From Chloroflexota bacterium (GTDB lineage: Bacteria > Chloroflexota > Limnocylindria > P2-11E), in the NCBI GenBank assembly GCA_021787445.1, contig JAJYLV010000014.1, positions 1-34,342 of the forward strand: a stretch of DNA of 34,342 nt, written 5' to 3'. Every line of letters begins with the position of its first letter. Within the stretch, counting starts at the first letter, position 1. Made by a program: the position numbers and the translations under genes. Positions 7,176 through 34,259 of this stretch are shown here, piece by piece. The notes under the pieces were generated by a model. It was not told the origin of the DNA, did not search any database, and saw nothing but the letters and a program-made list of their open reading frames with translations.

Positions 7176-9278
7176 CTACTTCGATCGAAGCAGGCGGGCC
7201 GAGTTCAGCAAGATGGCGACATCGGGAAGACTCTGCGCGGCTGCGGCCCAGATGGGCGGCAGGGTCCCCGTGGCCGCGAGGGCGATACCGACGACGTTGT
7301 AGATCGCGGCGAACGCCAGGTTCTGTCGGATCTTCGCAGCGGCGCCGCGGCCGACGCGGATCGTGTCCGGCACGAGCGACCAGTCATCGCGCAGCAGCGC
7401 CACGTCGGCGGCCTCGATCGCGACCTGGCTGCCGGCCGCGCCCATCGCCACGCCGACATCCGCCTGGGCGAGCGCCGGCGCGTCGTTCACTCCGTCCCCG
7501 ACCATCAGCACCACGCGACCCCGCGCCTGGACTTCACGGACCGCCGCGATCTTCGCGTCGGGCAGCAGCCCTGCGCGGTACGCGATCCCGAGTGGTGCCG
7601 CCGCTGCGGCGGCCACCCGTTCGTTGTCCCCGGTGAGGAGCAAGACCTCACGCACCCCGAGGTGGCGCAACCGTCCCAGCGCGCCAGCCACATCGGGACG
7701 CACCCGGTCGGCCAGCGCCACGAGTCCGACGAGCGCAGCGTCACGGGCAGCGAAGAAGACCGTCTCGCCCCGCCCCTCGAGCGCGTGCGCGCGCTCTTCC
7801 GCGGAACCGGAGACGACGACCCCGCGCTCTCCGAGGAGCGCGCGGGTGCCGACGGCCCACTCTGCGCCGTCGAGACGCGCGACCACGCCCCGCCCGGGGA
7901 GGGCTCGGAAGTCGTCGGGCGCGCCGACCGGCAGCCCGCGCCGGCGCGCCGCGTCGGCGACGGCGCGGCCGAGCGGATGCTCGCTGCGGACCTCGGCCGT
8001 CGCGAGCGAGGACAGGAGCGCGGACTCGAGCTGACCGTCGAGGGGGATGATGCTGGTGACCTCGGGGTGACCGAAGGTGAGCGTGCCGGTCTTGTCCAGG
8101 CAGACGGCATCGACGCGCGCGAGCTGCTCGAGGACGATGCCGCCCTTGACGAGCAGACCGCGCCGCGCCGCGGTGCCGACGCTCGCGAGCACGACCAGCG
8201 GGGTGGCGATAACGATGGCGCACGAGCAGGCAACGACGAGCACGGCGACCGCGTTCAGGACGCGCCCGCTGATCAGATACGTGACAAAAGCGATGCCCAG
8301 CACGAGCGGCAGATAAAAGGCGGTGAAGCGATCGGCGAAGCGCTGCACAGGAGCCTTCTGGCTCTCGGCTTCCTCGACCAGGCGCACGACTTTGGCGAAG
8401 GTCGTGTCGGCGCCGGTGCGCAGCGCACGCACCTCGACGTAACCGCCCTGGACGAGGGTCGAGGCGAGCACGCGCGAGCCCGGCGCGACATCGACGGGCA
8501 CGCTCTCGCCCGTGAGCGAGGATTGGTCGACGGCCGCGCTTCCGGTGAGGACCTCGCCGTCGGCAGGGATGCGCTCGCCGGGGCGCACCGCGACGACCTC
8601 GCCCGTGGCGACCTCGGCTGCGGGCACCTCGTGCTCGACACCGCCGCGGATGACGCGCGCGGTCTGCGGAGCGAGCCGAGTGAGCAGGCGAATCGCGTCG
8701 CGGGCACGTTCGGTCGTGCGCTCCTCCACCCAGTCGGCGAAGCGCATGAAGAACACGATGAGCGCCGCGGTGGTCCACTCGCCGATCGCGGCCGAGGCGA
8801 TGACCCCGATGGTCATGAGCGTGTGACTGGTGACCTGGCGGCGCAGCGCCGCGCGGGCCACGCCGCGGAAGACGGGGAACCCGCCGAGGACGATCGCGAG
8901 CGCCGGCACCCACCACGGCAGCCGCGCGACGAGATCCTCGACCAGGCCGAGCCGCTCGCCGAGCGCGGCCAGGCCGACCACGACTGCGATCATCGCGAGC
9001 GAGGCCCAGCCGATGAGCTGAGCCACGTCCCGACCAACCGCCTCGACCTCGCCGTGTGCGCGGGCGGTGTGGAACCCCGCCGCCTCGATCGCGTGCGCGA
9101 GCGCTTCCGCTGTGGCCTGATCGCGGTCGAAGCGGACGCTCACGCGCTCCGCGGCGAGCAGCGTCTTTACCTCGCTCACCCCGGGAACGGCGCGCAAGGC
9201 CGTCTCGACCTGCTCGGCCTCTTCGGCACAGCACATCCCCACGACCGGAAGGCTCAGCTCTTCGAGATGTGCGCTCAC
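7176..9278 (-). CDS. Heavy-metal translocating P1B-type ATPase with N-terminal HMA-like domain (VVGMCCAEE); TM4 motif reads CSC instead of CPC
   Basis: DKTGTLT, TGES, SEHPLG and GDGVNDAPAL motifs; start taken at MSAHLEELSLPVVGMCC. Confidence 0.88.
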   Translation of the reverse strand: MSAHLEELSLPVVGMCCAEEAEQVETALRAVPGVSEVKTLLAAERVSVRFDRDQATAEALAHAIEAAGFHTARAHGEVEAVGRDVAQLIGWASLAMIAVVVGLAALGERLGLVEDLVARLPWWVPALAIVLGGFPVFRGVARAALRRQVTSHTLMTIGVIASAAIGEWTTAALIVFFMRFADWVEERTTERARDAIRLLTRLAPQTARVIRGGVEHEVPAAEVATGEVVAVRPGERIPADGEVLTGSAAVDQSSLTGESVPVDVAPGSRVLASTLVQGGYVEVRALRTGADTTFAKVVRLVEEAESQKAPVQRFADRFTAFYLPLVLGIAFVTYLISGRVLNAVAVLVVACSCAIVIATPLVVLASVGTAARRGLLVKGGIVLEQLARVDAVCLDKTGTLTFGHPEVTSIIPLDGQLESALLSSLATAEVRSEHPLGRAVADAARRRGLPVGAPDDFRALPGRGVVARLDGAEWAVGTRALLGERGVVVSGSAEERAHALEGRGETVFFAARDAALVGLVALADRVRPDVAGALGRLRHLGVREVLLLTGDNERVAAAAAAPLGIAYRAGLLPDAKIAAVREVQARGRVVLMVGDGVNDAPALAQADVGVAMGAAGSQVAIEAADVALLRDDWSLVPDTIRVGRGAAAKIRQNLAFAAIYNVVGIALAATGTLPPIWAAAAQSLPDVAILLNSARLLRSK

Positions 9279-9628
9279 CTGCGGTAGTTGGCGCACGCCG
9301 CAATCCGCTCGGCGAGCGCGGCGACGGTCCCGTCGGCGTGCGCGAGCATCCGCTCGACTTCGCGACCGGCGACGCGGTAGTACACGAAGCGGCCCTCGGA
9401 GCGGCTGGTGACGAGTCCGCAATCGCGAAGGCAGGCGAGGTGCGCGCTCGCGTTCGCCTGCGACAGGCCCGTTGCCTCGACGAGGTCGCCCACGGACCGC
9501 TCGCCATCCCGAAGCGCCTCGAGCAGCGCGAGCCGTGACGGCTCCGCCAATCCGCGGAAGAGCTTGGCCTTGAGCTCAAGCGCCTCCTCCGCACCGACGC
9601 TGCTGCGGGCAGGCGCTCTCACATTCAT
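9275..9628 (-). CDS. ArsR/SmtB-family metal-responsive repressor (CadC/CmtR-like)
   Basis: LFRGLAEPSRLALLEALRDGERSVGDLVEATGLSQANASAHLACLRDCGLV; overlaps ATPase start. Confidence 0.85.
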   Translation of the reverse strand: MNVRAPARSSVGAEEALELKAKLFRGLAEPSRLALLEALRDGERSVGDLVEATGLSQANASAHLACLRDCGLVTSRSEGRFVYYRVAGREVERMLAHADGTVAALAERIAACANYRR

Positions 9629-11467: not shown

Positions 11468-11746
11468 ATGCGACAGGGCACCGATGGCATCGGCGGCGGC
11501 GCGCTCCTCGTGGGCCTGGTCGCTCTCTGCTGCGGCGGGCCGCTCCTCCTCGGCGCCCTCCTGGCGAGCGGTGTCGGCGCATGGCTGCTGGCCTTGGGCG
11601 GGCCGGTGCTCGCGGGAGGCGCGCTCCTCGTGGCCGCCATCCTCGGGACGCTGTGGCTGCGGCGGCGCGGCTGGCTCCTATCTCGCGTCGCGGACGCAGA
11701 CTGCTTCGCCCCGGTCAAGCCGGCGCGCTCGGAGGTTAGGAAATGA
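11468..11746 (+). CDS. MerF/MerT-like small mercury transporter
   Basis: [37 protein letters not shown]...: two TM helices, vicinal CC in TM1; ATGA overlap with merA. Confidence 0.65.
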
Positions 11747-13161
11747 AGGACAGCTACGACCTCGTGATCCTCGGGTCCGGGTCGACCGCCTTCGCCGCGG
11801 CGATCAGGGCGGCCGAGCTCGGCAAGAGCGCGGTCATGACCGAGAGCCGCACCATCGGCGGGACCTGCGTGAACCGCGGCTGCCTGCCCTCGAAGGATCT
11901 CCTCGAGGCCGCCCGCATCTACTGGGAAGCGCAGCACCCGCGCTTCCCCGGCCTGGGCGCCAAGACGCTCGACCTCGACTTCCGCCGGCTCATCCAGGGC
12001 AAGGACGAGGTCATCCGCGAGTACCGCAGGAAGAAGTACGACTCCATCGTCGACGAGAGCGAGCGCATCACCATCGTGCAGGGCCACGCCCGTCTCGTCG
12101 ATCCGCACACCGCCGCCCTGGACGGCCAGCGTCTGGTCGGCGACCAGGTCCTCATCGCCACCGGCAGCCGGCCCGCGGTGCCGGAGATCCCCGGTCTGCG
12201 GCACGTCCCCTACCTGACCAGCGACCTCCTCACCAGCGACGAGCCGATGGAGCTCACGGAGCAGCCGCGCTCGCTCGCCATCGTCGGCGGCGGGTACATC
12301 GCGGTCGAGCTCGCGCAGCTCTTCCAGCGCCTGGGCACGCCGGTGACGCTCATCCAGCGCTCCCCGCAGCTCCTCAGCGGCTATGAGCCCGAGGTCCAGG
12401 CCGAGATCGAGAACGTCCTCTCGGGCGAAGGCGTCGACCTGCGCCTGGGCGCGCGCGTGCGCGGTGTACGCCGCGAGGGCGACGGCGTTGTCGTCGCGCT
12501 CGAGGACGGCGAGGTCCGCGCCGAGGGGCTGCTCCTCGCGACCGGGCGGACCCCGAACACGGACGACATCGGCCTGGAGGAGGCCGGCGTCACACGCGAC
12601 GGGCGCGGCTTCGTCGGGGTCGACGAACACCTGCGCACCAACATCCCGCACATCTGGGCGGCGGGAGACGTCATCGGACGGCACACCGGCGCGCAGATGG
12701 CCACCCCGGTCGGCGCGCACGACGGCAACATCGCAGCCGGCAACGCGCTCGGCGGCGAGCGGCGCACGGTCGACCACACGGTCCTGCCGCGCACGATCTT
12801 CACCGATCCGCAGGTGGCGACCGTCGGGCTCACTGACGAAGAGGCAAACGGCGCCGGCTATCGCTGCAGTTGCAATACCGTGCCCATCCACCTCGTCCCG
12901 CGCGCCGGCGCGGTCCGCGACGAGCGCGGCATCATCAAGATGGTCGCCGAGGCCGGTACCGGGAAGGTGCTCGGCGTCTCGATGGTCGGGCGGGACGCCG
13001 GCGAGGTCATCCACGAGGCCGCGATGGCTATGCGCTTCAAGGGGACCGTCCACGACTTCATCGACATGGTCCACGTCTACCCGACGATGGCCGAGGCGCT
13101 GAAGATCGCCGCGCTCTCGTTCTTCAAGGACGTCTCGAAGCTGAGCTGCTGCGCCGAATGA
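11743..13161 (+). CDS. merA: Mercuric reductase
   Basis: [12 protein letters not shown] redox motif; C-terminal vicinal cysteines [13 protein letters not shown]. Confidence 0.92.
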
Positions 13162-13770: not shown

Positions 13771-13977
13771 TCAGCGGTCGCCCTTCGGCTCGGCGTACAC
13801 ATAGGCGTTGAGGCCGAGGTAGAGGTCCTTGCCGTCGATCTGGAGGGCGGTCTTCTGGTTGCCGCGCGTCGACGCGACCAGGAGCGTCTTACCGCTCGAG
13901 CTCGGCGTCGGCGCAGTGATCGGGATGCGGATCACGAGCGTGTCACCCTCTCGGTTCACGGTCAGGGCGTCGGCCAT
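13771..13977 (-). CDS. Small conserved protein family 'sp', copy 2 (68 aa)
   Basis: MADALTVNREGDTLVIRIPITAPTPSSSGKTLLVASTRGNQKTALQIDGKDLYLGLNAYVYAEPKGDR. Confidence 0.8.
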   Translation of the reverse strand: MADALTVNREGDTLVIRIPITAPTPSSSGKTLLVASTRGNQKTALQIDGKDLYLGLNAYVYAEPKGDR

Positions 13978-14118: not shown

Positions 14119-14583
14119 TCAGCGCGTGGTCTGAAGCAACTCTCGCTCTATATGATGCCGCAGCTCGTCCCGGACTTTGCGAAAGACCGCCAGCTGCTCC
14201 GCGTCGGTACCCGTGGCCCTTGAGGGATCCGGCAGCGACCAGTGCATCCGCATACGCGCGTTCGGGAAGATCGGGCAGCTTTCGTTCGCGTCGTCGCACA
14301 CAGTTATCACGTAGTCAAACGGCTGGTCGAGGTACCGATCGAGCGTCTTGGAATCCTGCCCGGCGATGTCGATCCCGAGCTCTGCCATCGCCCTGATCGC
14401 CAAGGGACGGACGTGGGTCGCCTCGGTGCCGGCGCTGTGCGCCTCGAAGCGCCCTCCACCGAGTGCGCGTAGGAGACCCTCCGCCATCTGGCTGCGCGCT
14501 GAGTTGTGCGTGCAGAGGAACAGCACTCGCCCTATCGAGATCGGGGCTCCCCGCAGCGCCGATCCGGGCGTTTCAGGTCGCAT
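14119..14583 (-). CDS. arsC: Arsenate reductase, LMW-phosphatase-like family (second copy)
   Basis: VLFLCTHNSARSQMAEGLLRALGGGRFEAHSAGTEATHV...; overlaps ACR3 stop. Confidence 0.87.
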   Translation of the reverse strand: MRPETPGSALRGAPISIGRVLFLCTHNSARSQMAEGLLRALGGGRFEAHSAGTEATHVRPLAIRAMAELGIDIAGQDSKTLDRYLDQPFDYVITVCDDANESCPIFPNARMRMHWSLPDPSRATGTDAEQLAVFRKVRDELRHHIERELLQTTR

Positions 14584-15718
14584 CGGACGGCACGACGAGC
14601 GGCTCGGGCCAGCGGACGCGCGTCGAGAGCCACAGGGCGACGTACACGAGGCCGACGAGCACCGGCACCTCGACCAGGGGACCCACGACGCCGGCGAGCG
14701 CCTGTCCTGACTCGGCCCCGAAGACACCGACCGCGACGGCGATCGCGAGCTCGAAGTCGTTGCTCGCGACGGTGAACGCGAGGCTTGCCGTCTGTGCGTA
14801 CGGCAGCCGCAGCGCCTTACCAGCGGCGAACCCGGCGACCCACATCAGTACGAAGTACGCAAGAAGCGGAAGCGCGATCCGCGCTACGTCGAGCGGCTCG
14901 GCGGTGATGCGCTTCCCCTGGATCGCGAAGAGCAGCACGATGGTGAAGAGCAGGCCGTACAGCGTGAGCGGGCCGATCCGCGGCAGGAACTGGCCCTCGT
15001 ACCACTCGCGACCGCGCCGCCCGAGACCGACGCGTCGCGTCAGGTAGCCGGCCACGAGCGGGATACCGAGGAAGATCAGCACGGTGCGCGCGATCTCCCA
15101 GATCCCCGGCTGGAAGCCTTGGGTGTCAAAGCCGAGCCAACCGGGCAGGAGCGTCAGGTAGAAGTAGCCGAGCAGCGCGTAGGCAGCGACCTGGAAGACC
15201 GCATTGAACACCACCAGCACCGCGGCGCGCTCGCGGTCGCCGCGCGCGATGTCGTTCCACACGAGCACCATCGCGATGCAGCGCGCCAGGCCGACGATGA
15301 TCACGCCGGTGCGGTACATCGGCTGGTCCGCCAGAAACAGCCATGCGAGCGCGAACATCAGCGCCGGACCGACGACCCAGGAGAGCAAGAGCGACACGCC
15401 GAAGAACGCGCGGTCGCTGATCCCGTCGGCGCGCATCCGTCCGAGGTCCTCGTAGCGGACCTTGGCGAGCACCGGGTACATCATGAGCAGCAGCCCGGCC
15501 GCGATGGGCAGCGAGACCGTGCCCACGCGCAGCCGGTCAAGCGCGTCGTTCAGGCCCGGGACCAGTGAGCCGAGCGCGAGCCCCGCGGCCATCGCGAGCG
15601 CGATCCATAGCGGCAGGAAGCGATCGAGCGTGGAGAGCTGCGCGGCGACGGCGATGTGACCGGGCTGAGGTGCGACGGTGCGTGAAGCGGCGCTACTCCT
15701 CATCGCAGCAGGCCGCAT
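14573..15718 (-). CDS. acr3: ACR3-family arsenite efflux transporter
   Basis: Multi-TM protein with GLARCIAMVLVWNDIARGDRE and FTVASNDFELAIAVAVGVFG, typical of ACR3. Confidence 0.9.
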   Translation of the reverse strand: MRPAAMRSSAASRTVAPQPGHIAVAAQLSTLDRFLPLWIALAMAAGLALGSLVPGLNDALDRLRVGTVSLPIAAGLLLMMYPVLAKVRYEDLGRMRADGISDRAFFGVSLLLSWVVGPALMFALAWLFLADQPMYRTGVIIVGLARCIAMVLVWNDIARGDRERAAVLVVFNAVFQVAAYALLGYFYLTLLPGWLGFDTQGFQPGIWEIARTVLIFLGIPLVAGYLTRRVGLGRRGREWYEGQFLPRIGPLTLYGLLFTIVLLFAIQGKRITAEPLDVARIALPLLAYFVLMWVAGFAAGKALRLPYAQTASLAFTVASNDFELAIAVAVGVFGAESGQALAGVVGPLVEVPVLVGLVYVALWLSTRVRWPEPLVVPSDAT

Positions 15719-16451: not shown

Positions 16452-17793
16452 ATGCGGATCCTCGTCGTCGGTGGCAGTGACGGCGGGACGATGGCGGCGC
16501 TGCGCGCGCGAGCTGGATCCGACGATCGAGGTCACGATGCTCGTGGCCGACGGCTTCCCCGATTTCAGCATCTGCGGCCTGCCCTTCTACGTGAGCGACG
16601 AAGTGCACCAGCCGAGCGCGCTGGCGCACCGCACCGGGGCGCCGCTGGCCGAGCACGGAATCGAAGTGCTTCTCCACCACTCGGCCACCGAGCTTCGCCC
16701 GGCGGAGAGGACCGTGCTCGTGCGAGGGAGCGACGGGCACGAGCAGTCGATGCGTTACGACACCGTCGTCATCGCGACCGGCGCCCGGCCCCGTCGCGCG
16801 CGGATCGAGGGCGAGGACCTCGCCGGTGTCCACCACCTGCACACCGTGGCCGACGGCATCCAGCTCCGAGCACGGGTGGACGGCGGCAGGCTCGACCGCG
16901 TCGCGATCGTCGGCGCGGGTTACATCGGGCTCGAGATGGCGGATGCGTTCGTGCGACGCGGACTACACGTCACGCTGCTCAGCCGGTCCGCGACAGTACT
17001 TCCGACGCTCGACCCGAGCCTCGGGGAGCTGCTACGCGTCGAACTCGAGCGGCACGGGGTCGCGGTCGAGACCGGCGTCGCGGTGAGGCAGGTCAGCAGC
17101 GCGCAGGAGCGGCTGCGCGTGCAGGCCGACGCCGGATCGAGCTATGGGGCCGACCTCGTGCTCCTTGCCGCAGGCGTCGAGCCCAACAGCGATCTCGCCC
17201 GCAGCGCCGGCGTCGCGCTCGGACTCCATGGCGCGATCCGAGTGGATCGACGGATGCGCACGAACGTCCCGGGCGTGCTGGCCGCCGGGGACTGCGTCGA
17301 GACCTGGCACCGGCTTCTCGCGCGGCCCGCATACCTGCCGCTGGGAACGACCGCGCACAAGCAGGGTCGCATCGCCGGCGAGACCGCCGCTGGCGGCACG
17401 CGCGAGTTCCAGGGGTCCCTGGGCACGCAGGTCGTGAAGGTGTTCGAGCTCGCCGCCGCGCGGACCGGTCTGCGCGAGGCCGAGGCACGCGCGGCGGGCC
17501 TCTACCTGGTCACGGTCGAGACCGAGCCGTGGGACCACAAGGTGTACTACCCAGGCGCACGACGCCTGCACATTCGGATCACCGGCGACCGCCGCAGTGG
17601 ACGGCTGCTCGGCGCGCAGATCGTGGGCGACTGGCGAGCCGAAGCCGCCAAGCGCATCGACATCTTCGCCACGGCCATTCACAACGGCTTGAACATGGAC
17701 GACCTGAACGATCTGGACCTCAGCTACACGCCACCGCTCGGCGCGCCGTGGGACGCGATACAGGAAGCTGCACAAGCCTGGTCGATCTCATGA
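16452..17793 (+). CDS. FAD/NAD(P)-dependent disulfide oxidoreductase (CoA-disulfide reductase-like), apparent frameshift near 16500-16512
   Basis: MRILVVGGSDGGTMAALRAR | ELDPTIEVTMLVADGFPDFSICGLPFYVSDEVHQ; two frames meet in gcgcgcgcg; GAGYIGLEMADAFVRRG. Confidence 0.8.
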
Positions 17794-17848
17794 GCCTCGC
17801 GGCGGTGTCGCACCGCGGCGATGCGGTGACCGTCGCGGGTCTCGTGCG

Positions 17849-19111
17849 ATGGATGACCTCGGAGGTCAGGTGGTCGCGCGAGTAGCCACGGTCGGCGCTG
17901 CATATGGCGCCGTCATCCGCAGCCCTCGCTACTTCCCACTCTGGCTCGGGCAGCTCGTCTCGAGCTTCGGCGACACGCTCCACTACATCGCCCTCGTCGT
18001 GTTGGTGTTCCAGCTCTCGGGCCAGGGACTCGCCGTCGCAGGCCTCGTCGCGACCGAGATCGTGCCCGTCCTTCTCCTCGGTCCGGTGGCGGGCGTGGTC
18101 GTCGACCGCTTCAGCCGCAAGGGCATCCTTATCGGCGCGGATCTGTTCCGCGCTGCGCTGGCGCTCACCCTGCTCTGGCCGCAGGGGGTCTGGCACGCGT
18201 ACCTCGTGGCCGCTGGGCTCTCGGCGGGGAGTGTGTTCTTCAACCCCACGGTCAACGCGGTGATCCCGGTGCTCACCACACCGGAGCAGCGCCTCGCGGC
18301 GAACTCGGTGTCGTGGTCCACCGGTCGGCTCGTGCAGATCGTCGCGGCCTCTATCGCTGGCGGCGTGATCAGCCTCGTCGGCACCGGACCGGCCTTCGGG
18401 CTGAACGCGGCGAGCTTCGCGGTCTCGGCGCTGCTCATCGCCACGCTCGCGATCCCCGCCCACGCGGGGCAGATCGAGGGCGGTGCCAAGCGCGGCCTCG
18501 GCTCACTCCTTGCCGACGCCAGTGCCGGCCTCGCTTACGCCCGCCGCGACTTCTTCGTGTCGCGGCTGCTCGCCGTCCAGTCGCTCGCCTCCTTCGCGGT
18601 CGGCGGGACCGGTGCGATGCTCGTCGTGCTCTCCGAGCGGCACCTGCATCAGCCACCCGAGGGATTCGCTTGGCTCATCGGCGCGATCGGCGTCGGTGCG
18701 CTGTTGGGGCCGCTCATCCCGAACACTTTCGCCCGCGACTACCGTAACGCCCGCTGGCTGTTCGTCCCGTACCTGATCCGCGGCGTGGGCGACGTGCTCA
18801 TCGCCGTGTTCACGCCCCTGCCGATCGCGTTGGTCATCCTCTTTATCTACGGCTTGAACACGAGCACGGGGATGGTCGTGTTCAACAGCACCATCCAGGG
18901 CGCGATCCCCGACGCGATGCGCGGCCGGGTCTTCACCATGCTCGATGTGAGCTGGAGCACGATGCGGCTGCTGTCGCTTGGCCTAGGTGCGCTCGTGGTC
19001 GACCGGCTGGGTGTCGAGCCGCTCTATTGGATGGGCGGGACGCTGCTGTTCTTTGCCGGCGTCCTTGGCCTCGCACTGCTCGGGCGAGTGAGGTTCGGGA
19101 CCGTCGGATAG
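17849..19111 (+). CDS. MFS transporter
   Basis: RYFPLWLGQLVSSFGDTLHYIALVVLVFQ...GPVAGVVVDRFSRKGILIGADLFRA; 12-TM pattern. Confidence 0.82.
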   Translation: MDDLGGQVVARVATVGAAYGAVIRSPRYFPLWLGQLVSSFGDTLHYIALVVLVFQLSGQGLAVAGLVATEIVPVLLLGPVAGVVVDRFSRKGILIGADLFRAALALTLLWPQGVWHAYLVAAGLSAGSVFFNPTVNAVIPVLTTPEQRLAANSVSWSTGRLVQIVAASIAGGVISLVGTGPAFGLNAASFAVSALLIATLAIPAHAGQIEGGAKRGLGSLLADASAGLAYARRDFFVSRLLAVQSLASFAVGGTGAMLVVLSERHLHQPPEGFAWLIGAIGVGALLGPLIPNTFARDYRNARWLFVPYLIRGVGDVLIAVFTPLPIALVILFIYGLNTSTGMVVFNSTIQGAIPDAMRGRVFTMLDVSWSTMRLLSLGLGALVVDRLGVEPLYWMGGTLLFFAGVLGLALLGRVRFGTVG

Positions 19112-19288: not shown

Positions 19289-19678
19289 CTAGGTCGAGCC
19301 CCTCGCCTTGAGGCGCTCACGGATGGGCCCGAAGTCGACTCTGGACCCGCACAGGAAGTGCGCGTCTCGATGTGCGTTGACCGCAGCCGCGGCGCCGTGG
19401 ACGCCGAGCTTCCTGTAAGCGTTGGCCGCGACGTTCCCCACCGTGTTGATGGAGATCCCGAACTCGAATGCGATCATCTTCTGCGTCATCCCCCGCGCCA
19501 GTCGCTCGAGGGTCGCGCATTCGCGGGCCGTGAGGGGCCGCGGGTAGGACGTCGGAGATCGTCTCACGCCCGCTTCGCCCATTGCCGTCGTGCCCCACGC
19601 GCCGATACGGCGGCCAACGAGCGCTGAGGCGTGGCCCGGTGGGTTCGGGGCGGCGACATCGGCCAAGAATCGCCACAC
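19289..19678 (-). CDS. Small LuxR-type HTH protein (copy 1)
   Basis: PLTARECATLERLARGMTQKMIAFEFGISINTVGNVAANAYRKLGVHGAAAAVNAH; near-identical to 33672-34070. Confidence 0.8.
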   Translation of the reverse strand: MWRFLADVAAPNPPGHASALVGRRIGAWGTTAMGEAGVRRSPTSYPRPLTARECATLERLARGMTQKMIAFEFGISINTVGNVAANAYRKLGVHGAAAAVNAHRDAHFLCGSRVDFGPIRERLKARGST

Positions 19679-21282
19679 GTGGCCACGTGCACGGCCAAGC
19701 GGCTAGCCTGTCGGTCATGCCGCCCCTGCGGCGAGGAGCTCCAGCAGGTCCTCGAGGCCTCCGACGAGCACGCCGTGGACGAGCGTTCGATGCCCCGGGT
19801 CAGACCCCGGTCGGGACCGCCAGACTGAACTTTCGCCGCGAGCAGGGGAGCGACGTCGGGCTTCGGCCGGACGGCAACGATCGCCTGGCGGCTCACGGTG
19901 ACGGAATCGAACAGCGTGCGGAGAACTTGGCATCGGCGCTCGGGCGATGCGCTCTCCCACGCGGTCCCCAAGTCCTGGGCCACCTTGATCGCCTGCAGGA
20001 TCCGCCGCTCATCGGGCGCCTGCTCAGCACGCTCCAACTGCGCCTGCAACACGCCGAGCTGCTCGCGGTAGTCCGCCTCGTCGAGCGCCTTCCACATGTA
20101 GGCGTCGGTCAGCCGCTTCACCGCCACTCGTAGCGTTTCGACAGTCGCGCCGTCACGCTGTTGGCTAACGCGAGCGCGCACGAGAGCCGCGACACGCGGC
20201 CGCAACGACGTCGGCAGCGCCATCGCTAGGCGCAGCCAAACTCCGAGTTGCGCTTCGATCCGCTCTGCCGCGACGGAGGGCTCCGAGCAGCCGGCGTGCT
20301 CCGACGCCCGCCGGCAACGCATGCGCCGTTTGGACGACGCCGTCACCCGCCCACCACAGGCGCAGCGCGTTACCTCCGTGAGCGGGTACACGCTCCGGTT
20401 CGCGCTGCGCTTCGGAAGCCGCACGCGTGCCCGCCGGGTCGCCTGGACCCGCTCGAAGAGGTCGAGGGGCATGAACCCCGCGAACGCGGCCCGACGAAGC
20501 TCCTTGCCGCCGCGCTTCCGCCTGTAGCCGACCAGGCCCGCGTTCAGCGGGTTCGCCAGGACGTTGCGCCACCATTCGTCGGTCAGTGATCTTCCGGCCG
20601 GCGTGCGGAAGCCCTCGCGGCTGCTCCAACGAGCGAGCTCGCCGAAGCCGACACGACCGGTCGCATACCGGTGCGCACCTTCCAGGACGATCGTGGACAG
20701 CTCGGGATGGGGCAACACCGCTCCCGCCGGGTCGCGATAGAACGTCTCGGGCAGCCGCCCAAGGGGCTCGCCTCGTTCGTGCTTTTCCCGCAACCCGACG
20801 CCGACCCACCAGCCGATGGTGTCTGAGGTGAACTCGTCGACCGCTTCCATCATCCGCTCGGCGAACTTGCCTTCGGGACGCGCGACGTCGAAGGGTGCGT
20901 TCGTGGCAACGACGTCGACGCCCCGGCGGCGGAGTTCATCCTTGTACTTGCGGGAAACCATCGCGTTGCGCGCCCACCGCGACGTATGGAGCACGATGAC
21001 CGCGGCGATCGTCCCCGTTCGCGCGAGGGCCAAGAGGTCCTGGAAGGCGACACGGTCCTCGCGTCGGCCGCTCATCAGATCGAGAAAGACATGTTCGACG
21101 GGCACCCAGAGGAGGCGACGGCTCGCCTCGTCGAGGGTGCCTTTGAGCTGCGCGGCAGGCGAGAAGCCCTCGACCTGCTCCCGCTTGGACTCCCGCAGGT
21201 ACACCGCGCCGGTACGCCAGCCAGTGTGATCGCCCGCAGCGCTCGCATAGGCGACCCAGATCTCCTGCAACTCAGCTCTCAC
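19564..21282 (-). CDS. Large serine recombinase; reading frame passes through att copy B into the LuxR module
   Basis: AVYLRESKREQVEGFSPAAQLKGTLDEASRRLLWVPVEHVFLDLMSGRREDRVAFQDLL...; zinc ribbon CACGGRVTASSKRRMRC; C-terminus ...QSGGPDRGLTRGIERSST spans the repeat. Confidence 0.9.
   Translation of the reverse strand: MRAELQEIWVAYASAAGDHTGWRTGAVYLRESKREQVEGFSPAAQLKGTLDEASRRLLWVPVEHVFLDLMSGRREDRVAFQDLLALARTGTIAAVIVLHTSRWARNAMVSRKYKDELRRRGVDVVATNAPFDVARPEGKFAERMMEAVDEFTSDTIGWWVGVGLREKHERGEPLGRLPETFYRDPAGAVLPHPELSTIVLEGAHRYATGRVGFGELARWSSREGFRTPAGRSLTDEWWRNVLANPLNAGLVGYRRKRGGKELRRAAFAGFMPLDLFERVQATRRARVRLPKRSANRSVYPLTEVTRCACGGRVTASSKRRMRCRRASEHAGCSEPSVAAERIEAQLGVWLRLAMALPTSLRPRVAALVRARVSQQRDGATVETLRVAVKRLTDAYMWKALDEADYREQLGVLQAQLERAEQAPDERRILQAIKVAQDLGTAWESASPERRCQVLRTLFDSVTVSRQAIVAVRPKPDVAPLLAAKVQSGGPDRGLTRGIERSSTACSSEASRTCWSSSPQGRHDRQASRLAVHVATCGDSWPMSPPRTHRATPQRSLAAVSARGARRQWAKRA
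19795..19820 (+). repeat. Candidate att site copy B (CCGGGTCAGACCCCGGTCGGGACCGC)
   Basis: Identical 26-mer at 34182-34207; last 14 nt equal window positions 1-14. Confidence 0.6.
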
Positions 21283-21619: not shown

Positions 21620-22426
21620 TCATCGGCGCTGGTCCCACGGCAACGGCTCCTGGGCACAGCGCTCGACGATGAGCGGGCAGTACTCCTCGGCGCGCTCGAT
21701 GCCGATGGCGCGGCGCCCCATGGCGCGCGCGGCCACGAGCGTCGTCCCGCTGCCGGCGAAGGGGTCAAGCACCGTGGCCCCGAGCGGCGCGGCGAGGGCC
21801 ACGAGGTAGCGCGTGACGTCCTCGGGCTTCTGCGTCGGATGGCCGGTCGCCTCTCGCCCCCTCTTGCGGCGAGGCGCCTCGATGACCGTCCCGGCCATCG
21901 GCCCGGCGGGATGGGGGACGTAGCGGTGGGGGCCCAAGCCGTGCGAGCGCACGAGACGGCGGCTGGGCCGCAGTGCGGAGCCGTAGCGGCGCAGGCCGCG
22001 GACGTCCTCGGACTCGGCCAGGAGCAGGCCGCTGATAACGATCTGCTCGTGCTCGGGCCGCAAGTACCCCGGCGCGACGCGGAAGCCCGCGTAGTGGGCC
22101 CACACGAGGAGTTGCATCGGGCGTGCGGGCGAGTCGCCGCGCACCTCGCGCAGCGCCGACATCACGAGGTCGAGGCGGCGACGCGGCGCGAAGGTGACGA
22201 TCGGGCCGCCCGGCATGACGACGCGGTCGACCTCGCGCAGCCACGAGGCGTACCACTCCCGGTCGCGCGGCCCGTCCCAGTCCGCGGCGCCCTCGCCGTA
22301 CGGTGGGTCGGTGACGCAGCAGTCGACGCTCGCGCTCGGGAGTTGAGCGAGGACCTCGAGCGCGTCGCCCTGGTAGAGCGTGACGTCGCCGCTCTGGAAG
22401 GTCGGCGCGAGCGTCGTGACGCTCAC
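21620..22426 (-). CDS. DNA (N6-adenine or N4-cytosine) methyltransferase, no partner restriction gene seen
   Basis: DPPYGEGAADWDG and DPFAGSGTTLVAARAMGRRAIGIERAEEY; GHPTQKPEDV. Confidence 0.88.
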   Translation of the reverse strand: MSVTTLAPTFQSGDVTLYQGDALEVLAQLPSASVDCCVTDPPYGEGAADWDGPRDREWYASWLREVDRVVMPGGPIVTFAPRRRLDLVMSALREVRGDSPARPMQLLVWAHYAGFRVAPGYLRPEHEQIVISGLLLAESEDVRGLRRYGSALRPSRRLVRSHGLGPHRYVPHPAGPMAGTVIEAPRRKRGREATGHPTQKPEDVTRYLVALAAPLGATVLDPFAGSGTTLVAARAMGRRAIGIERAEEYCPLIVERCAQEPLPWDQRR

Positions 22427-22614: not shown

Positions 22615-24590
22615 CTAATCCTCCGGGAGCGGGTCGCCCGGAACGAGCTGGGCCGCCTGCCTGGGGCGGGTCCGGAGGTTGTGCAGGTAGCCGAGGCGGA
22701 CGGCCTCGCGCACGCGGCTTCGCGCGGCGTTGTGGCTGAGGCCAAGCGCCTTCGCGAGCTCCGCGACGGTCAGCGGGGTGTTGCCGTCATACGCGCCGAC
22801 GAGCGCCGCGACGGTCTCGCGGACTGTGCGTGAGACTCCGCCCGTCGCTGCCGCGGTGAAGACCTCGAGGAGCAGCGCGCGCGCGTTTGCGTAGTCGTCG
22901 AGCGTTGCGACGACGCGCCCCTGCTCGTCGCGCTCGCGTTGGCGCTGGCGCAGGAGCGCGAGCGCCTTGATGAGGGTCAGGAGCTGGGCGAAGTCGCGGC
23001 GCATGCGCACCTCGCGGTCGGGGACGCGGTCCGCGAGGAGGTCCGCGAAGGGGACCGCGATGTCGCGACAGGCCGCGAGCTCGAACCAACGCTGGAGCGC
23101 GACGAACGGTGCCCGATCGAGCGCGGACCGCGCGCCAGTGGCTGCTGCCGCGTGGGCCCGCAGCACCAGGCGCGTCTGCTCGGGCGTGTCCGGGATGCCC
23201 ACCGTGAGCATGCGCGAGCCCATCTGCTCGCCGAGCGCTTTGGTGGAGGTGGTAATGAGGCCGGTCGGACCGGGTTTGCGGATCTTGCGCGTGACCTGGT
23301 GGCCTGTCCGCTCATCACGCTCGACGACGTCGTATTCCATGGCGTTGTCCGCGGCGAGCGCGCGAATCGCCGATGCCGCCGGACCTTCTTCGGGGATGCT
23401 GTCGGCCTCGGCGACAACGACCGTGCGGTGCTGGAAGTCCTCATCGTTGAACACGAGCGCGCGCGGGCTGCCGGCTTTCTCGAGGTAGTAGGCGGAAGCG
23501 GGCATGAGGTCGAGCGCGGCGTCGACCGCACGGTTCTTGCCCGACGCTGCGATCGCGACGAAGGCCAGGTTGAGCGGGCGCTCGAGGAGCCGGCTGGTCA
23601 GCGCGAGGTACGCAAGGAGCGCGGGCCTGGCGTCGCCGGCGTAGCCGGAGAGCGCGACCGCGCGCTCAATGCGCCCAAGGAGGTCCGGAGCCTCGAGGAG
23701 CTCGCGCCCCTCCGTGAAGGCGGCTTCCGCTTCGGCGCGCGACGCGGCATCGATGCGCTCGCGGATCGGCCGCGCGCTCGACATGAGCTCGCCCATCCGC
23801 TCGGCGAAGGCTGCGGGCCCGCTAACGTACAGGGCGCTCGGGTCCTTCGCGTCCGGCGGCGCCTCGATGACACGGGCCTCCGGAAGGCTCCGGCCGACAC
23901 ACTCGGCGAAGGCCGCGCCGCCTTCGTCCGGCTCCCGCCAGACGAAGACCTCGCGTCCGGCAACGAGCTTCGCGTAGTCGCCGCGCCAGGTCGCCGCGCC
24001 TGGGAGCCCGAGCGCGTGGAGACCCGCGTACCAGAGCGTCCAGGCGTCGCTCGCGCCCTCGACGAGGATGAGCGGCGCCTCGGGCGGAGCGCTATTGACG
24101 CGCCAGAGGCCGTAGGGGATCGGCCTGTCGCCGCGCCGCCACAGAAACCGCAGCTCTCCTTGGAGCGCGATGCGCTTCTGGACGGCGCACTCCTCCCCGG
24201 CTGCGTCGAGGTAATGGATGTCGACGCACGGCCGGCGATGAACGCCGTGCACGCCCTCGCGGACGCCGAGCGCGCCCAGGAACTCCTCGGGCAGCCGCTT
24301 CGCGCGAGCGAGCTCGGAGAGCGTGAGACCCACTCCGTGCGTCGGCGCGTCGGACCACAGGCCCTTCTCGCGCAGCGCCTCGAGGACGGCCTCCTGATCG
24401 CAGCCGGCCTGGCAGTGGAAGAGGACCCGGCCGTTCGCGCTTCTGACGCTCAGCGATGGCCGCTCGTCCGCGTGCGCCGGACAGTGCACGAGCCCCGCGC
24501 CGCGGCGCGCCGCGCCCTGGCAAGCGCATCCCGTTCGCTCGCAGTTGAGCGTCCGGCAGAGCGTCGCGGCGTCCGGATGGTCGTTCACGG
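22615..24590 (-). CDS. CHC2/TOPRIM primase with degenerate ATPase-like domain and C-terminal wHTH
   Basis: GTG start VNDHPDAATLCRTLNCERTGCACQG...LVHCPAHADERPSLSVRSANGRVLFHCQAGCDQE; TOPRIM-like LILVEGASDAWTLWYAG; IAASGKNRAVDAALDL; HTH LTVAELAKALGLSHNAARSRVREAV. Confidence 0.75.
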
Positions 24591-25004
24591 CCGCCTGCCG
24601 TATCCGAGTCCGTCGAGCGCGGCGATGGCATCGGTGGCCCACGCCGCGACCGTCTCGAGCTTGAGCGCTTCCGCGAGGCGTAGGCCCGATCGCAGGTAGC
24701 CGCGCAGACGCTGGCGGTCGCGTAGCCATGCGCGGCAGCGCGGGCAGTAGCGGGGGAGAGGGCCACTGGGATGGACCCGCGTGATGGGGACCTCACAGGC
24801 GGCGCAGCGCGCGCTCTGAACCCGTGGTACAGGGACGTCCGACCCGAACGCCGACCGGGCGGCATCAGATGGCTGGCCCGGCCTACCGCGCCGTGCGGCG
24901 ATCCGTTGCCGCGCCGCGTCCAGCACGCTGATCGTCCCTCGCTCGCACTCGTTGTTCGCTTCGGTCATGCACCTAAACGTCTGTGCGCGCGAGCCACGCG
25001 TCAA
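24585..25004 (-). CDS. Small zinc-ribbon protein
   Basis: ARCAACEVPITRVHPSGPLPRYCPRCRAWLRDRQRL; stop overlaps start of primase gene. Confidence 0.55.
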   Translation of the reverse strand: MTRGSRAQTFRCMTEANNECERGTISVLDAARQRIAARRGRPGQPSDAARSAFGSDVPVPRVQSARCAACEVPITRVHPSGPLPRYCPRCRAWLRDRQRLRGYLRSGLRLAEALKLETVAAWATDAIAALDGLGYGRRP

Positions 25005-27239: not shown

Positions 27240-27625
27240 CTAGGCGCATGTTTGCGTGAGGACGGGCGAGTCGGCAGGACGCCCTCGCCCTCGAGCGAGC
27301 GGAGCACGAGCACGAGGCCGTCGGACCAATCGCCCCACTGCTCGTTGTCGCGGATGGCGCGCTCGCGCATCGTCCGCTCGTCGACGTCCTCGAGGACCGC
27401 GGTCGCGCCGTTGGCCCATCGCGGCGAGGGAGCGCTGGTTGCCGCAGAAGATGAGGCCATCGGTTCGCGCGAGGACCGGCCGGAGGCGCAGGAACTCGGG
27501 ATTGGCGGCGATCGCGCGCCGGAGGTTCTCGAACCGCTCGGGGCTGATGGTCCGCGGGTTCTCATCTCACGGATGGAGATCGCCGACGGGCACGAGCCGC
27601 GGTGAGACCAGCTGCGACGCGGGCG
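27240..27625 (-). pseudogene. ParB-like gene remnant (in-frame stop plus frameshift)
   Basis: LVPVGDLHP*DENPRTISPERFENLRRAIAANPEFLRLRPVLARTDGLIFCGNQRSLAAM then, in another frame, NGATAVLEDVDERTMRERAIRDNEQWGDWSDGLVLVLRSLEGEG. Confidence 0.68.
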
Positions 27626-27838
27626 TCACATCCATCGGGTCCTGAGGATGGCCGTCCACGCGTCCGTCGCGGGGCGGATCCCATGCTCGCTACTAGCGCG
27701 TTTCTCTATCTCTCACCGTGAGGCCAACGCGCCGCATGCTGCGCGTCCGGTTGAGCAGGACTACCCCATGTTGATCAACCGGGCCCCTCAGAATGGTGTC
27801 TTTCTCTACCGTCGGGCAGCTCTTTGGTGAGTCGCGTC

Positions 27839-29101
27839 TCACTCGCTGCTCTCGGCAGATCCGTGGGATCGCAGGGCGCGCACGAGGGGCAGTGGCGAGC
27901 GGCCAATGGCACAGTAAGCCGCTGCGCTGAGCACGTACGCGACCGCCACCTCCAGGCGGATCGCAGGCACGGCGAACTGGGTGAGGAAGAGCGCGAGCAG
28001 CAGCACGGCGTCGAAGAGGGTCAAGCGCAAGCGCGCCAGCATCGCGACGCCAAGCAGGGTCTGCGCCGCGGTGAGCAGGATCTCGTCGCGCGAGAGCTGA
28101 ACGAGCGCGATCTCGGCAGGATGTCCGAGCGAGAGGCTGTACACGATGGGGATCGTCGCGATGAGCAACGTCCACTGATTCAGTTTGGCCGAGACCAGGT
28201 TGCCGAGGCCGCGGGCGACGCTGACTATCGTCGCCGCCCACAGAAATGCGGTGAGCGATTCGGGGAACTCCGCCAGGAACGGTGCCACCCACTGGATCAG
28301 GAAGAACTGCGGCACCCCCAGAGAATCGGCGCTCGCTATGAGCCCGGCGATGAATGGCTCGGCGCCGAAGCCGATCACGAAGGCGCCGAACGCCAGGAAG
28401 ACGACGACCACGAGGGCACGACGGATCCCGGGCAAGCGCTGCAGTTTGCCGACGATGCCCGGTTCGCCCTCCTCCTCCTCCTCCTCCTCGGACTCGGTCC
28501 GACCGGAGCGCAGCGCATTGACGATGTAGGCGACGTAGAGGGCGATAAGGACCACGGCGTCCAGCAGGCCGAGCGTCGCTTTCGCGGCGATGAGCACCGC
28601 GTAGACGGTCGCGGCGCTCAGGAAGAGCACATCCGCCGCGAGCGCCCGCGGGATCTCTACGGCCCGGAAAGGTCGGCGACGCGCCCGCGCCGCGAAGTAG
28701 GCGACGAAGAAGATCAGCGGCCACCCCACGCCGAGGAGCAGCCGGTTCGACCCGGTCATGGAGGAGGCGGCGAGCTCGATGCGGCGCTCCCAGGCCAGCA
28801 CGACCTCGAAGCTGTACTCCGGAAGGACCTCGATGAGCGCGAGCAAAGCGAGCGCAGCCGAGACGGGGACCGTGATCTCCAACGTCTCCGTCGCCCACGA
28901 CAGGAATAGCGCGGCCGCGACGATGGCAAGTCCGGTGACCGCCGCCACGACCAGCGGACTGGACCGGCCGACGCCACCGAAGATGACGATGACGAACGGA
29001 ATGAGCGTGAGCGCGAGCAGCGCGATAAGGAGCGCATCGGCGCGACCGAGTCGCGCCGACCGGCCCTCACCTTCCTCGGTCGGTGCATCGTCCGCGCTCA
29101 C
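27839..29101 (-). CDS. Sodium/calcium-exchanger (CaCA) family cation antiporter with acidic loop
   Basis: Two homologous halves with GFGAEPFIAGLIASADSLGVPQFFLIQWVAPFLAEFPES; loop ESEEEEEEEGEP. Confidence 0.72.
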   Translation of the reverse strand: MSADDAPTEEGEGRSARLGRADALLIALLALTLIPFVIVIFGGVGRSSPLVVAAVTGLAIVAAALFLSWATETLEITVPVSAALALLALIEVLPEYSFEVVLAWERRIELAASSMTGSNRLLLGVGWPLIFFVAYFAARARRRPFRAVEIPRALAADVLFLSAATVYAVLIAAKATLGLLDAVVLIALYVAYIVNALRSGRTESEEEEEEEGEPGIVGKLQRLPGIRRALVVVVFLAFGAFVIGFGAEPFIAGLIASADSLGVPQFFLIQWVAPFLAEFPESLTAFLWAATIVSVARGLGNLVSAKLNQWTLLIATIPIVYSLSLGHPAEIALVQLSRDEILLTAAQTLLGVAMLARLRLTLFDAVLLLALFLTQFAVPAIRLEVAVAYVLSAAAYCAIGRSPLPLVRALRSHGSAESSE

Positions 29102-29445
29102 CCGGGCCGCCGACCCCGCTCGTCGTAGTTCAGGCACGCGGCGATCTCCGCGGCGGTCCGCTTTAGCACCCGGTCCGCCGCCGCCAGGAGGGCGCGCACC
29201 TCGCCGCCGGCGAGCTCGTAGCGGACGAAGCGTCCCTCGCGCTCACGCCTGACCAGTCCGCACTCGAAGAGACACGCCAGGTGCGCGGACACACTGGACT
29301 GGCCAAGATCGCTCTCCTCGACGAGCTCGCTGACCGTGCGCGGACCCTGGGCGAGCGCGACCAGGATCGAGAGGCGCGCTGGGTCTCCGAGGCCGCGAAA
29401 GATCTTGGCTCGTAGCGCGTGCGCGGTCTCGGTTACGATCGTCAT
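29098..29445 (-). CDS. ArsR/SmtB-family metal-responsive repressor
   Basis: IFRGLGDPARLSILVALAQGPRTVSELVEESDLGQSSVSAHLACLFECGLV. Confidence 0.84.
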   Translation of the reverse strand: MTIVTETAHALRAKIFRGLGDPARLSILVALAQGPRTVSELVEESDLGQSSVSAHLACLFECGLVRREREGRFVRYELAGGEVRALLAAADRVLKRTAAEIAACLNYDERGRRPG

Positions 29446-29461
29446 ATCTTTATGTGACGAT
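29438..29461. promoter_or_regulatory. Inverted repeat ATCGTCA-N10-TGACGAT overlapping the start of the ArsR-family gene
   Basis: Related ATATGACGAT occurs at 9641-9650 upstream of the 9275-9628 repressor. Confidence 0.5.
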
Positions 29462-29496
29462 ACCACCGGCGGGACCCGCCGTGCGCACTACGATAC

Positions 29497-29901
29497 ATGA
29501 GCGATGGTTCATACATGGAACTGACGCTCGAGCGCTGCGAGGTCGAATGCCTGCACCCGCAACACGTCGGCCCGCTCATTGGGCGCGTCATCAGCAGCGG
29601 CGACGCTGAGGAGGTCGTCACGACCTTCGACCTCCTGGCCGACCCGACGCGCGCGCGCATCCTTCACGCCCTCAGCCTCGCGGATGAGCTCTGCGTGTGC
29701 GACTTGGCATGGCTCCTCGGCCTCAGCCAGTCCGGACTCAGCCATCAGCTGCGGCTCTTGCGCGAGCGCCGCGCGGTCGAGCGCCGTCGCGCCGGGCGGA
29801 TCGTGTATTACCGGCTACGCGACTGCCACATCCGCCGCCTGGTGCGCGACGCGCTGCGCCACGCCCGCGAGCCGCGACCGCGCGCACGGGAGGCCGTGTG
29901 A
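29497..29901 (+). CDS. ArsR-family repressor, CadC-like (ELCVCDLA)
   Basis: TFDLLADPTRARILHALSLADELCVCDLAWLLGLSQSGLSHQLRLLRERRAV. Confidence 0.82.
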   Translation: MSDGSYMELTLERCEVECLHPQHVGPLIGRVISSGDAEEVVTTFDLLADPTRARILHALSLADELCVCDLAWLLGLSQSGLSHQLRLLRERRAVERRRAGRIVYYRLRDCHIRRLVRDALRHAREPRPRAREAV

Positions 29902-30791
29902 CTGCGCACGCCCAAAGCCCGGCCGGAGCGAACCGCTCGCGCCTCGCGCTCGTGCTCGGGATCAGTTCCGCGATCTTCCTCGTCGAGGTCAGCGGCGCGT
30001 ACCTCACCAACAGCCTCGCGCTGCTGGCTGATGCCGGTCACATCCTCGCGGACGCCGCCGGGATCGGGACCGCGTTGCTCGCCGTCCGGCTCGCGGCACG
30101 GCCCGCAACGCAGCGGCGGACGTTCGGCTTCTACCGCCTGGAGATCATCGCTGCGGTCTTCAATGGCCTGCTCCTCTTCGGGATCGCCGGGTACTTGCTG
30201 CTCGAGGCAGCGCGTCGCTTCGAAGCGCCACCCGAGGTCGCCAGCGGCGCGATGCTCGGCTTCGCCTTGGTCGGTCTGTTCGCGAACCTCCTGTCTGCGT
30301 GGGTGCTCCGCGACGCACAGCGCGAGAGCCTGAACATGCGCGGCGCGTTCCTCGAGGTCCTGTCCGACGCGGCCGGCTCGGGCGCGGTGATCCTCGCCGC
30401 GCTCTTGATCTTGGCGACCGGGTTCCGCAGCGCCGATGCGATCGCGTCGGCGTTCATCGGCATCTTCATCATTCCGCGGACCTGGCGCCTGCTACGCGAC
30501 GCCGTCGACGTGCTGCTCGAAGCCACGCCCAAGGACGTGGACATGAGCGAGGTCCGTCGCCATATCCTGGAGGCGCCTGGCGTGCGCGACGTCCACGACC
30601 TGCACGTCTGGACCATCACCAGCGGCATGAACGTCGTGTCCGCGCACGTCGTGATAGATCGCGGCGCGGAGTCCTCCTCTGTGCTCGACCACCTCTGCCG
30701 CTGTCTTGGCTCGCAGTTCGACATCGAGCACTCGACGCTCCAGCTCGAGACCCCCGATCGCCGGCCGCTCGAGACCGCGACGCACGGGTGA
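29898..30791 (+). CDS. CDF-family (CzcD-like) divalent cation efflux protein
   Basis: NSLALLADAGHILADAAGIGTALLA...RTFGFYRLEIIAA...DVHDLHVWTITSGMNVVSAHVV; GTG start overlaps repressor stop. Confidence 0.88.
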   Translation: MTAHAQSPAGANRSRLALVLGISSAIFLVEVSGAYLTNSLALLADAGHILADAAGIGTALLAVRLAARPATQRRTFGFYRLEIIAAVFNGLLLFGIAGYLLLEAARRFEAPPEVASGAMLGFALVGLFANLLSAWVLRDAQRESLNMRGAFLEVLSDAAGSGAVILAALLILATGFRSADAIASAFIGIFIIPRTWRLLRDAVDVLLEATPKDVDMSEVRRHILEAPGVRDVHDLHVWTITSGMNVVSAHVVIDRGAESSSVLDHLCRCLGSQFDIEHSTLQLETPDRRPLETATHG

Positions 30792-31991: not shown

Positions 31992-32254
31992 CGATCGACT
32001 TCGGCCCCCCGTGGCTTAGCTCCCTGCGGTCTTCGTGGTTCGCCGATCAGGGGGCCACCTTTCGGCTCCGCGTACACGTAGGCGTTGACGCCGAGGTAGA
32101 GGTCCTTGCCGTCGATCTGAACACCGGTCTTCTGGTTGCCCCGGGTCGACGCCACGACGAGGGTCTTCCCGCTCGAGCTGGGTGTCGGGGTTGTCATCGG
32201 GATGCGGATCACGAGCGTGTCTCCCTCGCGCGTCACGGTCAGGTCGTCAGCCAT
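31988..32254 (-). CDS. Small conserved protein family 'sp', copy 3 (88 aa, extended C-terminus)
   Basis: MADDLTVTREGDTLVIRIPMTTPTPSSSGKTLVVASTRGNQKTGVQIDGKDLYLGVNAYVYAEPKGG... Confidence 0.8.
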   Translation of the reverse strand: MADDLTVTREGDTLVIRIPMTTPTPSSSGKTLVVASTRGNQKTGVQIDGKDLYLGVNAYVYAEPKGGPLIGEPRRPQGAKPRGAEVDR

Positions 32255-33671: not shown

Positions 33672-34070
33672 TCAGACCGTGCGGGCTGCATTGAGGCGCT
33701 CGCGGATCGGCCCGAAGTCGATCCGGGATCCGCAGAAGGCATGGGCGTCGCCGTGCGCGTGGACCGCGGCCGCGGCGCTGTGGACGCCGAGCTTCCTGTA
33801 CGCGTTCGCCGCGATGTTCCCCACCGCATTTATGGAGATCCCGAACTCGAACGCGATCATCTTCTGCGTTATGCCCCGCGCCAGTCGCTCGAGGGTCGCG
33901 CATTCGCGGGCGGTGAGCGGCCGCGGGTAGGACCTTGGAGGTCGTCTCACGCCCGCCGCCCGCACCGCCGTCGTGGCCCACGCGGCGACACGGCGGCCAA
34001 CAAGCGTCGCCGCGTGGGTCGGTCGGTTCGGCGCCAGGCCGGCCAACAGCCGCCACACGCAGCCACACAC
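33672..34070 (-). CDS. Small LuxR-type HTH protein (copy 2)
   Basis: PLTARECATLERLARGITQKMIAFEFGISINAVGNIAANAYRKLGVHSAAAAVHAHGDAHAFCGSRIDFGPIRERLNAARTV. Confidence 0.8.
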   Translation of the reverse strand: MCGCVWRLLAGLAPNRPTHAATLVGRRVAAWATTAVRAAGVRRPPRSYPRPLTARECATLERLARGITQKMIAFEFGISINAVGNIAANAYRKLGVHSAAAAVHAHGDAHAFCGSRIDFGPIRERLNAARTV

Positions 34071-34181
34071 GTGGCCCTGGGGCAGTCAGGCAAGCGCGAG
34101 CGCTCACGCCACACCCCGCGCGAGCTCGAGCAGGTCCTCGATCTGCTCGACAATGACGCCGTGGATCCGGACTTCACCGTT

Positions 34182-34207: not shown

Positions 34208-34259
34208 AGTATCGGACTAGCGCGATAACTGGGATCCAATGACGACGGATGGGCCGACT

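Follow-up and report, generated by a model that had tools for sequence, protein, structure and literature searches.

Gene content and repeats of the window

The window analyzed here is an entire contig (C51, 34,342 bp) of a 2.5-Mb Chloroflexota MAG, whose relatives carry the label Chloroflexi. Two genes for large serine integrases lie on its reverse strand, int1 at 2-1513 and int2 at 19829-21282, and their products are 63% identical. The Resolvase domain was detected well over the cut-off in both (E = 2e-19 and 2e-20, respectively), the motif Y-x-R-x-S with serine S34 is invariant, and int1 also matched a PHROG integrase (E = 7e-49, residues 28-471). The Pfam Recombinase and zinc ribbon domains were found in the expected places with scores just under their cut-offs; the four cysteines are invariant. 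Structure prediction of the integrase was poor (pLDDT 45), and a search against solved structures returned relatives of the catalytic domain only. The int1 frame is open at its 3' end, with no stop codon before the end of the contig, and the int2 frame passes the repeated core described below and runs on to 19564.

Each integrase gene is accompanied by replication and metal-related genes. In element 1, a D5-like primase/helicase is encoded at 1953-3593 on the reverse strand (D5_N, E = 5e-36; PHROG DNA primase, E = 2e-128). The whole primase region of this element (1953-4465, reverse strand) is covered by a pair of frames that overlap each other (1953-3593 and 3386-4465) and match different parts of PHROG 6088; the primase looks split, be it by a frameshift, by an assembly error or as two genes. 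The cargo comprises an ArsC arsenate reductase-like protein (5486-5908, reverse; LMWPc above the cut-off, TIGR02691 with E = 5e-36 below the curated cut-off), a heavy-metal P-type ATPase (7176-9422, reverse; TIGR01525), the mercury(II) reductase MerA (11743-13161, forward; TIGR02053) and an Acr3 arsenite efflux transporter (14573-15718, reverse; TIGR00832), the last three above their cut-offs. At 16452-17885 (forward) the longest ORF has an arginine-rich product, typical of a wrong frame, and the overlapping ORF at 16471-17793 may be the real gene instead. Element 2 encodes an N6/N4 DNA methylase (21620-22426, reverse; PF01555, E = 5e-29), a primase-like replication protein (22615-24729, reverse; PHROG DNA primase, E = 1e-14), two ArsR-type regulator ORFs (29098-29466, reverse, and 29497-29901, forward) and a cation-efflux (CDF) transporter (29697-30791, forward). 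A LuxR-type HTH gene is located at the right end of each element (19289-19678 and 33672-34070, both reverse; GerE, E = 1e-10 for the latter), and the same protein is encoded in the element of a related genome, G011. No capsid, terminase or conjugation genes were detected among the ORFs scanned against Pfam, and PHROG matches in the window were limited to integrase, primase and regulators.

An earlier note, made from the sequence, had described a 26-nt direct repeat in the window and had read it as the att core of a serine integrase. The 26-mer CCGGGTCAGACCCCGGTCGGGACCGC is indeed present exactly at 19795-19820, at the junction of right end 1 and int2, and at 34182-34207, where element 2 has its outer end. 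The final 14 nt of the repeat, CCGGTCGGGACCGC, are identical to window positions 1-14. The partial agreement reported for the 11 nt behind each copy also held (GGCATCGAACT, CAGACTGAACT and, after 34207, AGTATCGGACT). Allowing up to 3 mismatches, the 26-mer occurred only twice in the 2.5-Mb assembly, both times in the window, with no match in the backwards-read control or in shuffled windows; the repeat is not widespread at unrelated loci. The 14-mer was found at four sites in the genome, namely C51:1, C51:19807, C51:34194 and the last 14 nt of contig C100 (reversed control, 0).

When the window was compared with itself, 171-1488 matched 19970-21263 at 70% identity, and 19305-19820 matched 33688-34207 at 79%, which corresponds to about 500 bp to the left of both 26-mers. 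The self-matches thus define two related units, each with an integrase-gene left part and a right part, joined at the repeat. The window holds a tandem pair of related islands of about 19.8 and 14.4 kb, both of which encode a large serine integrase and a primase and carry metal-related cargo. Two further sequences are common to both elements and to the element of G011: a stretch of about 190 bp in three copies of about 85% identity (5275-5460, 13781-13977 and 32058-32254), which translates to a short ORF of no clear family, and a stretch of about 225 bp at 82% identity (4962-5187 and 27496-27724).

The tRNA-Asp gene and the element boundaries

The 14-nt core is the 3' end of a tRNA-Asp(GTC) gene. 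A pattern search of the window's own genome returned a single tRNA-Asp 3' end, located on C100, a contig of 4841 bp whose final base is the final base of both the tRNA gene and the core. As C51 begins at the first base of the core, the overlap between the two contigs is exactly 14 nt. The tRNA-Asp flanks of the related genomes G011 and G006 show synteny with C100 (about 74-79% identity over longer segments), and in both of these genomes GCGGTCCCGACCGGATTCGAACCGGCG... comes immediately after a homologous integrase; this sequence is the 3' end of a tRNA-Asp(GTC) gene on the opposite strand. Based on the contig-end overlap and the synteny, the tRNA-Asp gene would adjoin the start of the window, and the core at 1-14 would be attL. 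Window positions 1-4962 match the G011 element at 88-89% identity, beginning at the core, and the integrases are 92% identical; the excess over the chromosomal flank (about 76%) is expected after horizontal transfer. The locus thus has the layout of a tRNA-targeted island, with tRNA-Asp beside the integrase (on C100 and in the relatives) and displaced core copies at 19807 and 34194.

Contigs C51 and C100 break at C51:1 and C100:4841, exactly at the two edges of core identity. The base following the core differs among all right-hand neighbors (G, C and A), while the base preceding it is T at the tRNA gene and C at the right ends. A break at this position would be expected in a de Bruijn assembly if several successors existed on the tRNA side and several predecessors for int1; the position of the breaks suggests the coexistence of more than one junction in the sampled population.

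The ends of the element were also located in related genomes, as the earlier note had proposed. In G019 (genus g8) the tRNA-Asp gene, the core and the chromosome are contiguous, which represents an empty site. In G021, of the same genus, one contig matches G019 as far as the core, and a second contig carries a right end (...GCGGCTCAGACC), the core and then G019-like chromosome, so that the BLAST segments of this empty and occupied pair meet at the core. Positions 62678-62703 of G011 have the form of the window's right ends with an integrase remnant beyond, so that G011 carries another tandem array. In several relatives AGTATCGAACT beside tRNA-Asp precedes integrase-like remnants. Neither a contiguous attP nor near relatives were found in the viral contigs searched, and a plasmid search returned distant recombinases only, none above 60% identity.

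A purely coding origin of the repeat, as a 3' end conserved between paralogous recombinase genes and without any att function, was rejected as having practically no chance of being correct. Two paralogous recombinase ORFs do have the repeat inside them or at their end, but the reading frame through the core differs between int1 and int2 (PRSRP vs. GPDR), the same 14 nt are the end of a tRNA gene and bound the insert in the empty and occupied pair, and matches to relatives end at the core. The tandem arrangement could also have arisen by duplication of, or homologous recombination within, one island instead of by two site-specific insertions, as the two units are related at both ends and have further stretches of about 190-230 bp in common. 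However, the integrases are only 63% identical, cargo and replication genes differ, the left module of element 1 is far closer to the G011 element than to element 2, and the frame of each right end agrees with that of the integrase of the same element; we regard this origin as very improbable. The tRNA target, the boundaries and the tandem order are read directly from the DNA, and an att site at tRNA-Asp occupied by tandem elements is almost certain.

The proposal that the three repeats are attL, an internal att site and attR was borne out in part: tandem att sites mark the element boundaries, with attL at the window start and an internal site at 19795. The assignment of the site at 34182 as attR is less secure, because the 11 nt following it (AGTATCGGACT) resemble an integrase-side arm and because of the remnants behind AGTATCGAACT in relatives. 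These 11 nt open the flank at 34208-34342 (forward), which is either chromosome or the remnant of an older element; compared with relatives, this flank gave, core and arm aside, only short matches such as arise by chance in GC-rich coding sequence. We somewhat favor the reading of the 34182 site as internal, with an older, decayed element beyond it.

Proposed crossover site and integrase C-terminus

Large serine integrases cross over at a 2-bp core inside short dyad-like sites. The attP sites were reconstructed by placing the core between the right end and the integrase side of the same element. In all three attP sites the best center of symmetry was CC at core positions 1-2, that is, at the left edge of the core (19807-19808 on the forward strand). 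The site of element 1, GTTCGATGCCCCGGGTCAGACC-CC-GGTCGGGACCGCGGCATCGAAC, is symmetric around CC at 18 of 22 positions, and that of the G011 element at 19 of 22. For element 2 the value is 13 of 22, which about one in eight random stretches attains at its best center; this site was counted nevertheless because its center coincides with that of the other two. Among 5000 random stretches none scored above 16, and values of 13 or more were common. Short, quasi-symmetric att sites with a 2-bp center, a trait of serine integrases, are hence present at this locus.

The earlier note had placed the 2-bp center at GG within CGGTC-GG-GACCG. This inverted repeat exists, but it belongs to the tRNA gene, as the end of its acceptor stem, and is not the best center of symmetry of the site; centers at GG gave at most 11 matches, compared to up to 19 of 22 at CC, and a crossover at GG was rejected. 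Likewise, the 26-mer marks an att site, but the common core is 14 nt long instead of 26: the repeat is composed of a 12-nt right arm of the element and the 14-nt core (19807-19820 and 34194-34207). From the attP symmetry, the likely crossover site is CC, which is part of the T-arm of the tRNA gene. On this model the other 12 core nucleotides are identical because the island must rebuild the end of the tRNA.

In the mechanism that we propose, the attP of the circular island would consist of the right arm (ending in CCGGGTCAGACC), CC, and GGTCGGGACCGC with the integrase-side arm, which form near-symmetric half-sites. The large serine integrase would exchange strands at CC with the identical sequence in the T-arm of tRNA-Asp, and the island-borne GGTCGGGACCGC would rebuild the 3' end of the tRNA. 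Each new island would enter against the tRNA gene and displace older ones outward, with a core kept at each boundary.

The attP would also lie inside the 3' part of the integrase gene. Extended across the core to the right end of its own element, the int1 frame continues as RSRPGSDPGHRTLVHGVLVGGLEDLLELLAAGAA, the int2 frame as GPDRGLTRNGEVRIHGVIVEQIEDLLELARGVA and that of the G011 integrase as RSRPGSDPRHRTLIHGVSVGGLEELMELLAAGAA, each up to a stop codon. The C-terminal tail of int1 is located in right end 1 (19715-19806, reverse; stop at 19715-19717) and that of int2 in right end 2 (34104-34193, reverse; stop at 34104-34106), both in frame with their integrase in the circle; in the tandem, int2 is out of frame with right end 1. 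A circle would therefore provide the integrase with a C-terminal tail of about 34 amino acids from the island's other end, and integration would swap it for a short one from the tRNA antisense strand or from the next island. Integrated beside the tRNA gene, the integrase terminates in the tRNA antisense as PRSRPDSNRRSRP or GPDRIRTGDLVLDRDVC, followed by a stop. The LuxR-type HTH gene follows the tail in elements 1, 2 and G011 and would come after int in the circle.

A related tail was recognized in seven right ends, in one frame each, with mean scores of 38-58 vs. 13-21 for the other frames. In six of the seven it is 30-34 amino acids long, with the stop at a near-constant distance. The tail frame equals the frame of the cognate integrase in elements 1, 2, G011 and G012, that is, in four pairs, two of which are closely related. 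The closest pair of tails differs at 4, 1 and 10 nucleotides in codon positions 1, 2 and 3, respectively; remoter pairs are less clear. The cognate ends and the conserved in-frame tail are features of the sequence itself, and it is highly probable that the integrase tail is completed in the circular form.

The tail might instead be a DNA-level arm of attP or the remnant of an unrelated ORF and not belong to the integrase. About 22 bp at the start of the tail region are indeed att arm DNA, and the small number of independent frame matches would also fit such a reading. However, the tails are alike at the protein level over about 100 nt up to their stop, the closest pair differs mainly at third positions, the tail frame differs where the integrase frame differs, and no start codon of its own precedes the tail, as judged by eye; we consider this explanation improbable. 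More serious is the possibility that the elements are dead relics, with sites and tails as remnants that no longer recombine: decayed copies are common in relatives, and the primase of element 1 is seemingly split over two frames. Against this, int1 and int2 are intact with conserved serine and cysteines, the tails retain coding constraint, and the contig ends at both core edges look as if several junctions coexist in the sample. Relics are thus unlikely, though the best surviving of the alternatives, and the elements may be active at present. For the account as a whole, with two related islands inserted one behind the other at the 3' end of tRNA-Asp(GTC) and an exchange of the integrase tail, our confidence is high. 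The order of insertion would follow from the proposed displacement. The swap may also give the integrase different properties in the free and in the inserted state, which would help to fix the direction of the reaction; that it acts as a functional switch is, by analogy with the phage Mx8 (see below), a tentative suggestion.

Known systems and related integrases in Chloroflexota

The closest known system are the ssrA-specific genomic islands of Dehalococcoides with the serine integrase DsiB (McMurdie et al., 2011, PMC3146451). They belong to the same phylum, carry a large serine integrase of similar size adjoining attL and variable cargo, and lie in tandem downstream of an RNA gene with a 20 bp direct repeat of its 3' end; the crossover was inferred in the T-loop, and a repeat is embedded in a dsiB homologue. 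They differ in their target, which is tmRNA (ssrA) instead of tRNA-Asp, and in their module, which also includes a second, small serine recombinase (DsiA), ParB and Mom. The window showed none of these three, and among the ORFs scanned the Resolvase domain occurred only in int1 and int2. The description of the DsiB islands is without any conserved integrase tail restored in the circle (PMC3146451).

An att site inside the integrase gene is known from the streptococcal rumA ICEs, in which integration exchanges the C-terminus of a serine integrase (Ambroset et al., 2016, PMC4701971). In sequence terms the same arrangement was found here, with an int ORF that spans att and a C-terminus that differs between the circular and the integrated form. 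The rumA ICEs differ in using the protein gene rumA as target, in being conjugative and in their repeats of 2-21 bp (PMC4701971). The myxophage Mx8 is similar in that attP lies in the integrase gene and integration alters the C-terminus; the modified integrase is reported to have an altered specificity or a lower activity (PMC6070905, PMC4701971). Mx8 differs in being a phage with a tyrosine integrase.

Serine recombinases at tRNA genes are also used by Mycobacterium AICEs (tRNA-Leu) and the filamentous phage phiRSM (tRNA-Ser), the latter with a 13-bp tRNA match and, unlike here, an attP between genes (PMC3218068, PMC4471427). These differ in tRNA species and element type. SCC elements resemble them as mobile islands with serine recombinases and resistance cargo (PMC3146451 and general knowledge), but their Ccr enzymes act at a protein gene, whereas each island here has one integrase. 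Serine integrases were not known to specify tRNA genes according to the Islander paper, and Ghinet et al. considered serine integration at tRNA genes rare, with two cases. In the literature searched, largely outside subscription journals, no report of the present combination or of a wide tRNA-targeting group was found. Each ingredient was already known singly, and the combination is, within this literature, apparently new.

A search of the phylum with the four integrases gave matches in 26 of 399 Chloroflexota genomes (E <= 1e-25), and a tRNA gene was present at most of these integrase loci. The integrase stop lies beyond the tRNA 3' end in 19 of the 22 loci with a convergent tRNA; the tRNA genes entered by these 19 ORFs are those for Asp, Ala, Val, Gly, His, Pro, Leu and Glu, and remoter homologues were found near tRNA-Asn and tRNA-Arg. 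By a rough estimate, chance adjacency of integrase and tRNA is negligible. In the integrase tree the target shifts between tRNA species, and the users of tRNA-Asp are placed in separate positions. Besides int1 and int2, two of these integrases are encoded in the window's own genome (G000), one at C7:8786-10405 (L029, L211), whose ORF enters tRNA-Val(CAC), and one on C80 (L033, L212), whose ORF enters tRNA-Leu(CAG). Distal ends of the other Chloroflexota elements, searched with 11-nt seeds within 40 kb, were mostly not detected, with plausible repeats only in G345 and perhaps G192. On contig C93 of G345 (L217) a similar integrase lies at tRNA-Gly(GCC). The 3' end of this tRNA recurs at a distance of 3.9 kb (23 nt) and of 8.4 kb (13 nt), similar in-frame tails are present, and the locus is probably another tandem array.

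Tentatively, these integrases may form a broad group in Chloroflexota that is specialized on tRNA genes (Asp, Ala, Val, Gly, His, Pro, Leu and Glu, perhaps also Ser, Asn, Arg and Ile) and switches between them, with the att site in the integrase gene and the loss and regain of the tail as a built-in direction switch. While tRNA genes are considered the targets of tyrosine integrases, serine integrases here use them repeatedly across a phylum. The swapped tail would offer a testable model for an enzyme that senses whether its element is integrated or free, and the group may supply serine integrases that are directed to conserved tRNA sites. The islands themselves carry mercury and arsenic resistance genes among uncultured bacteria.
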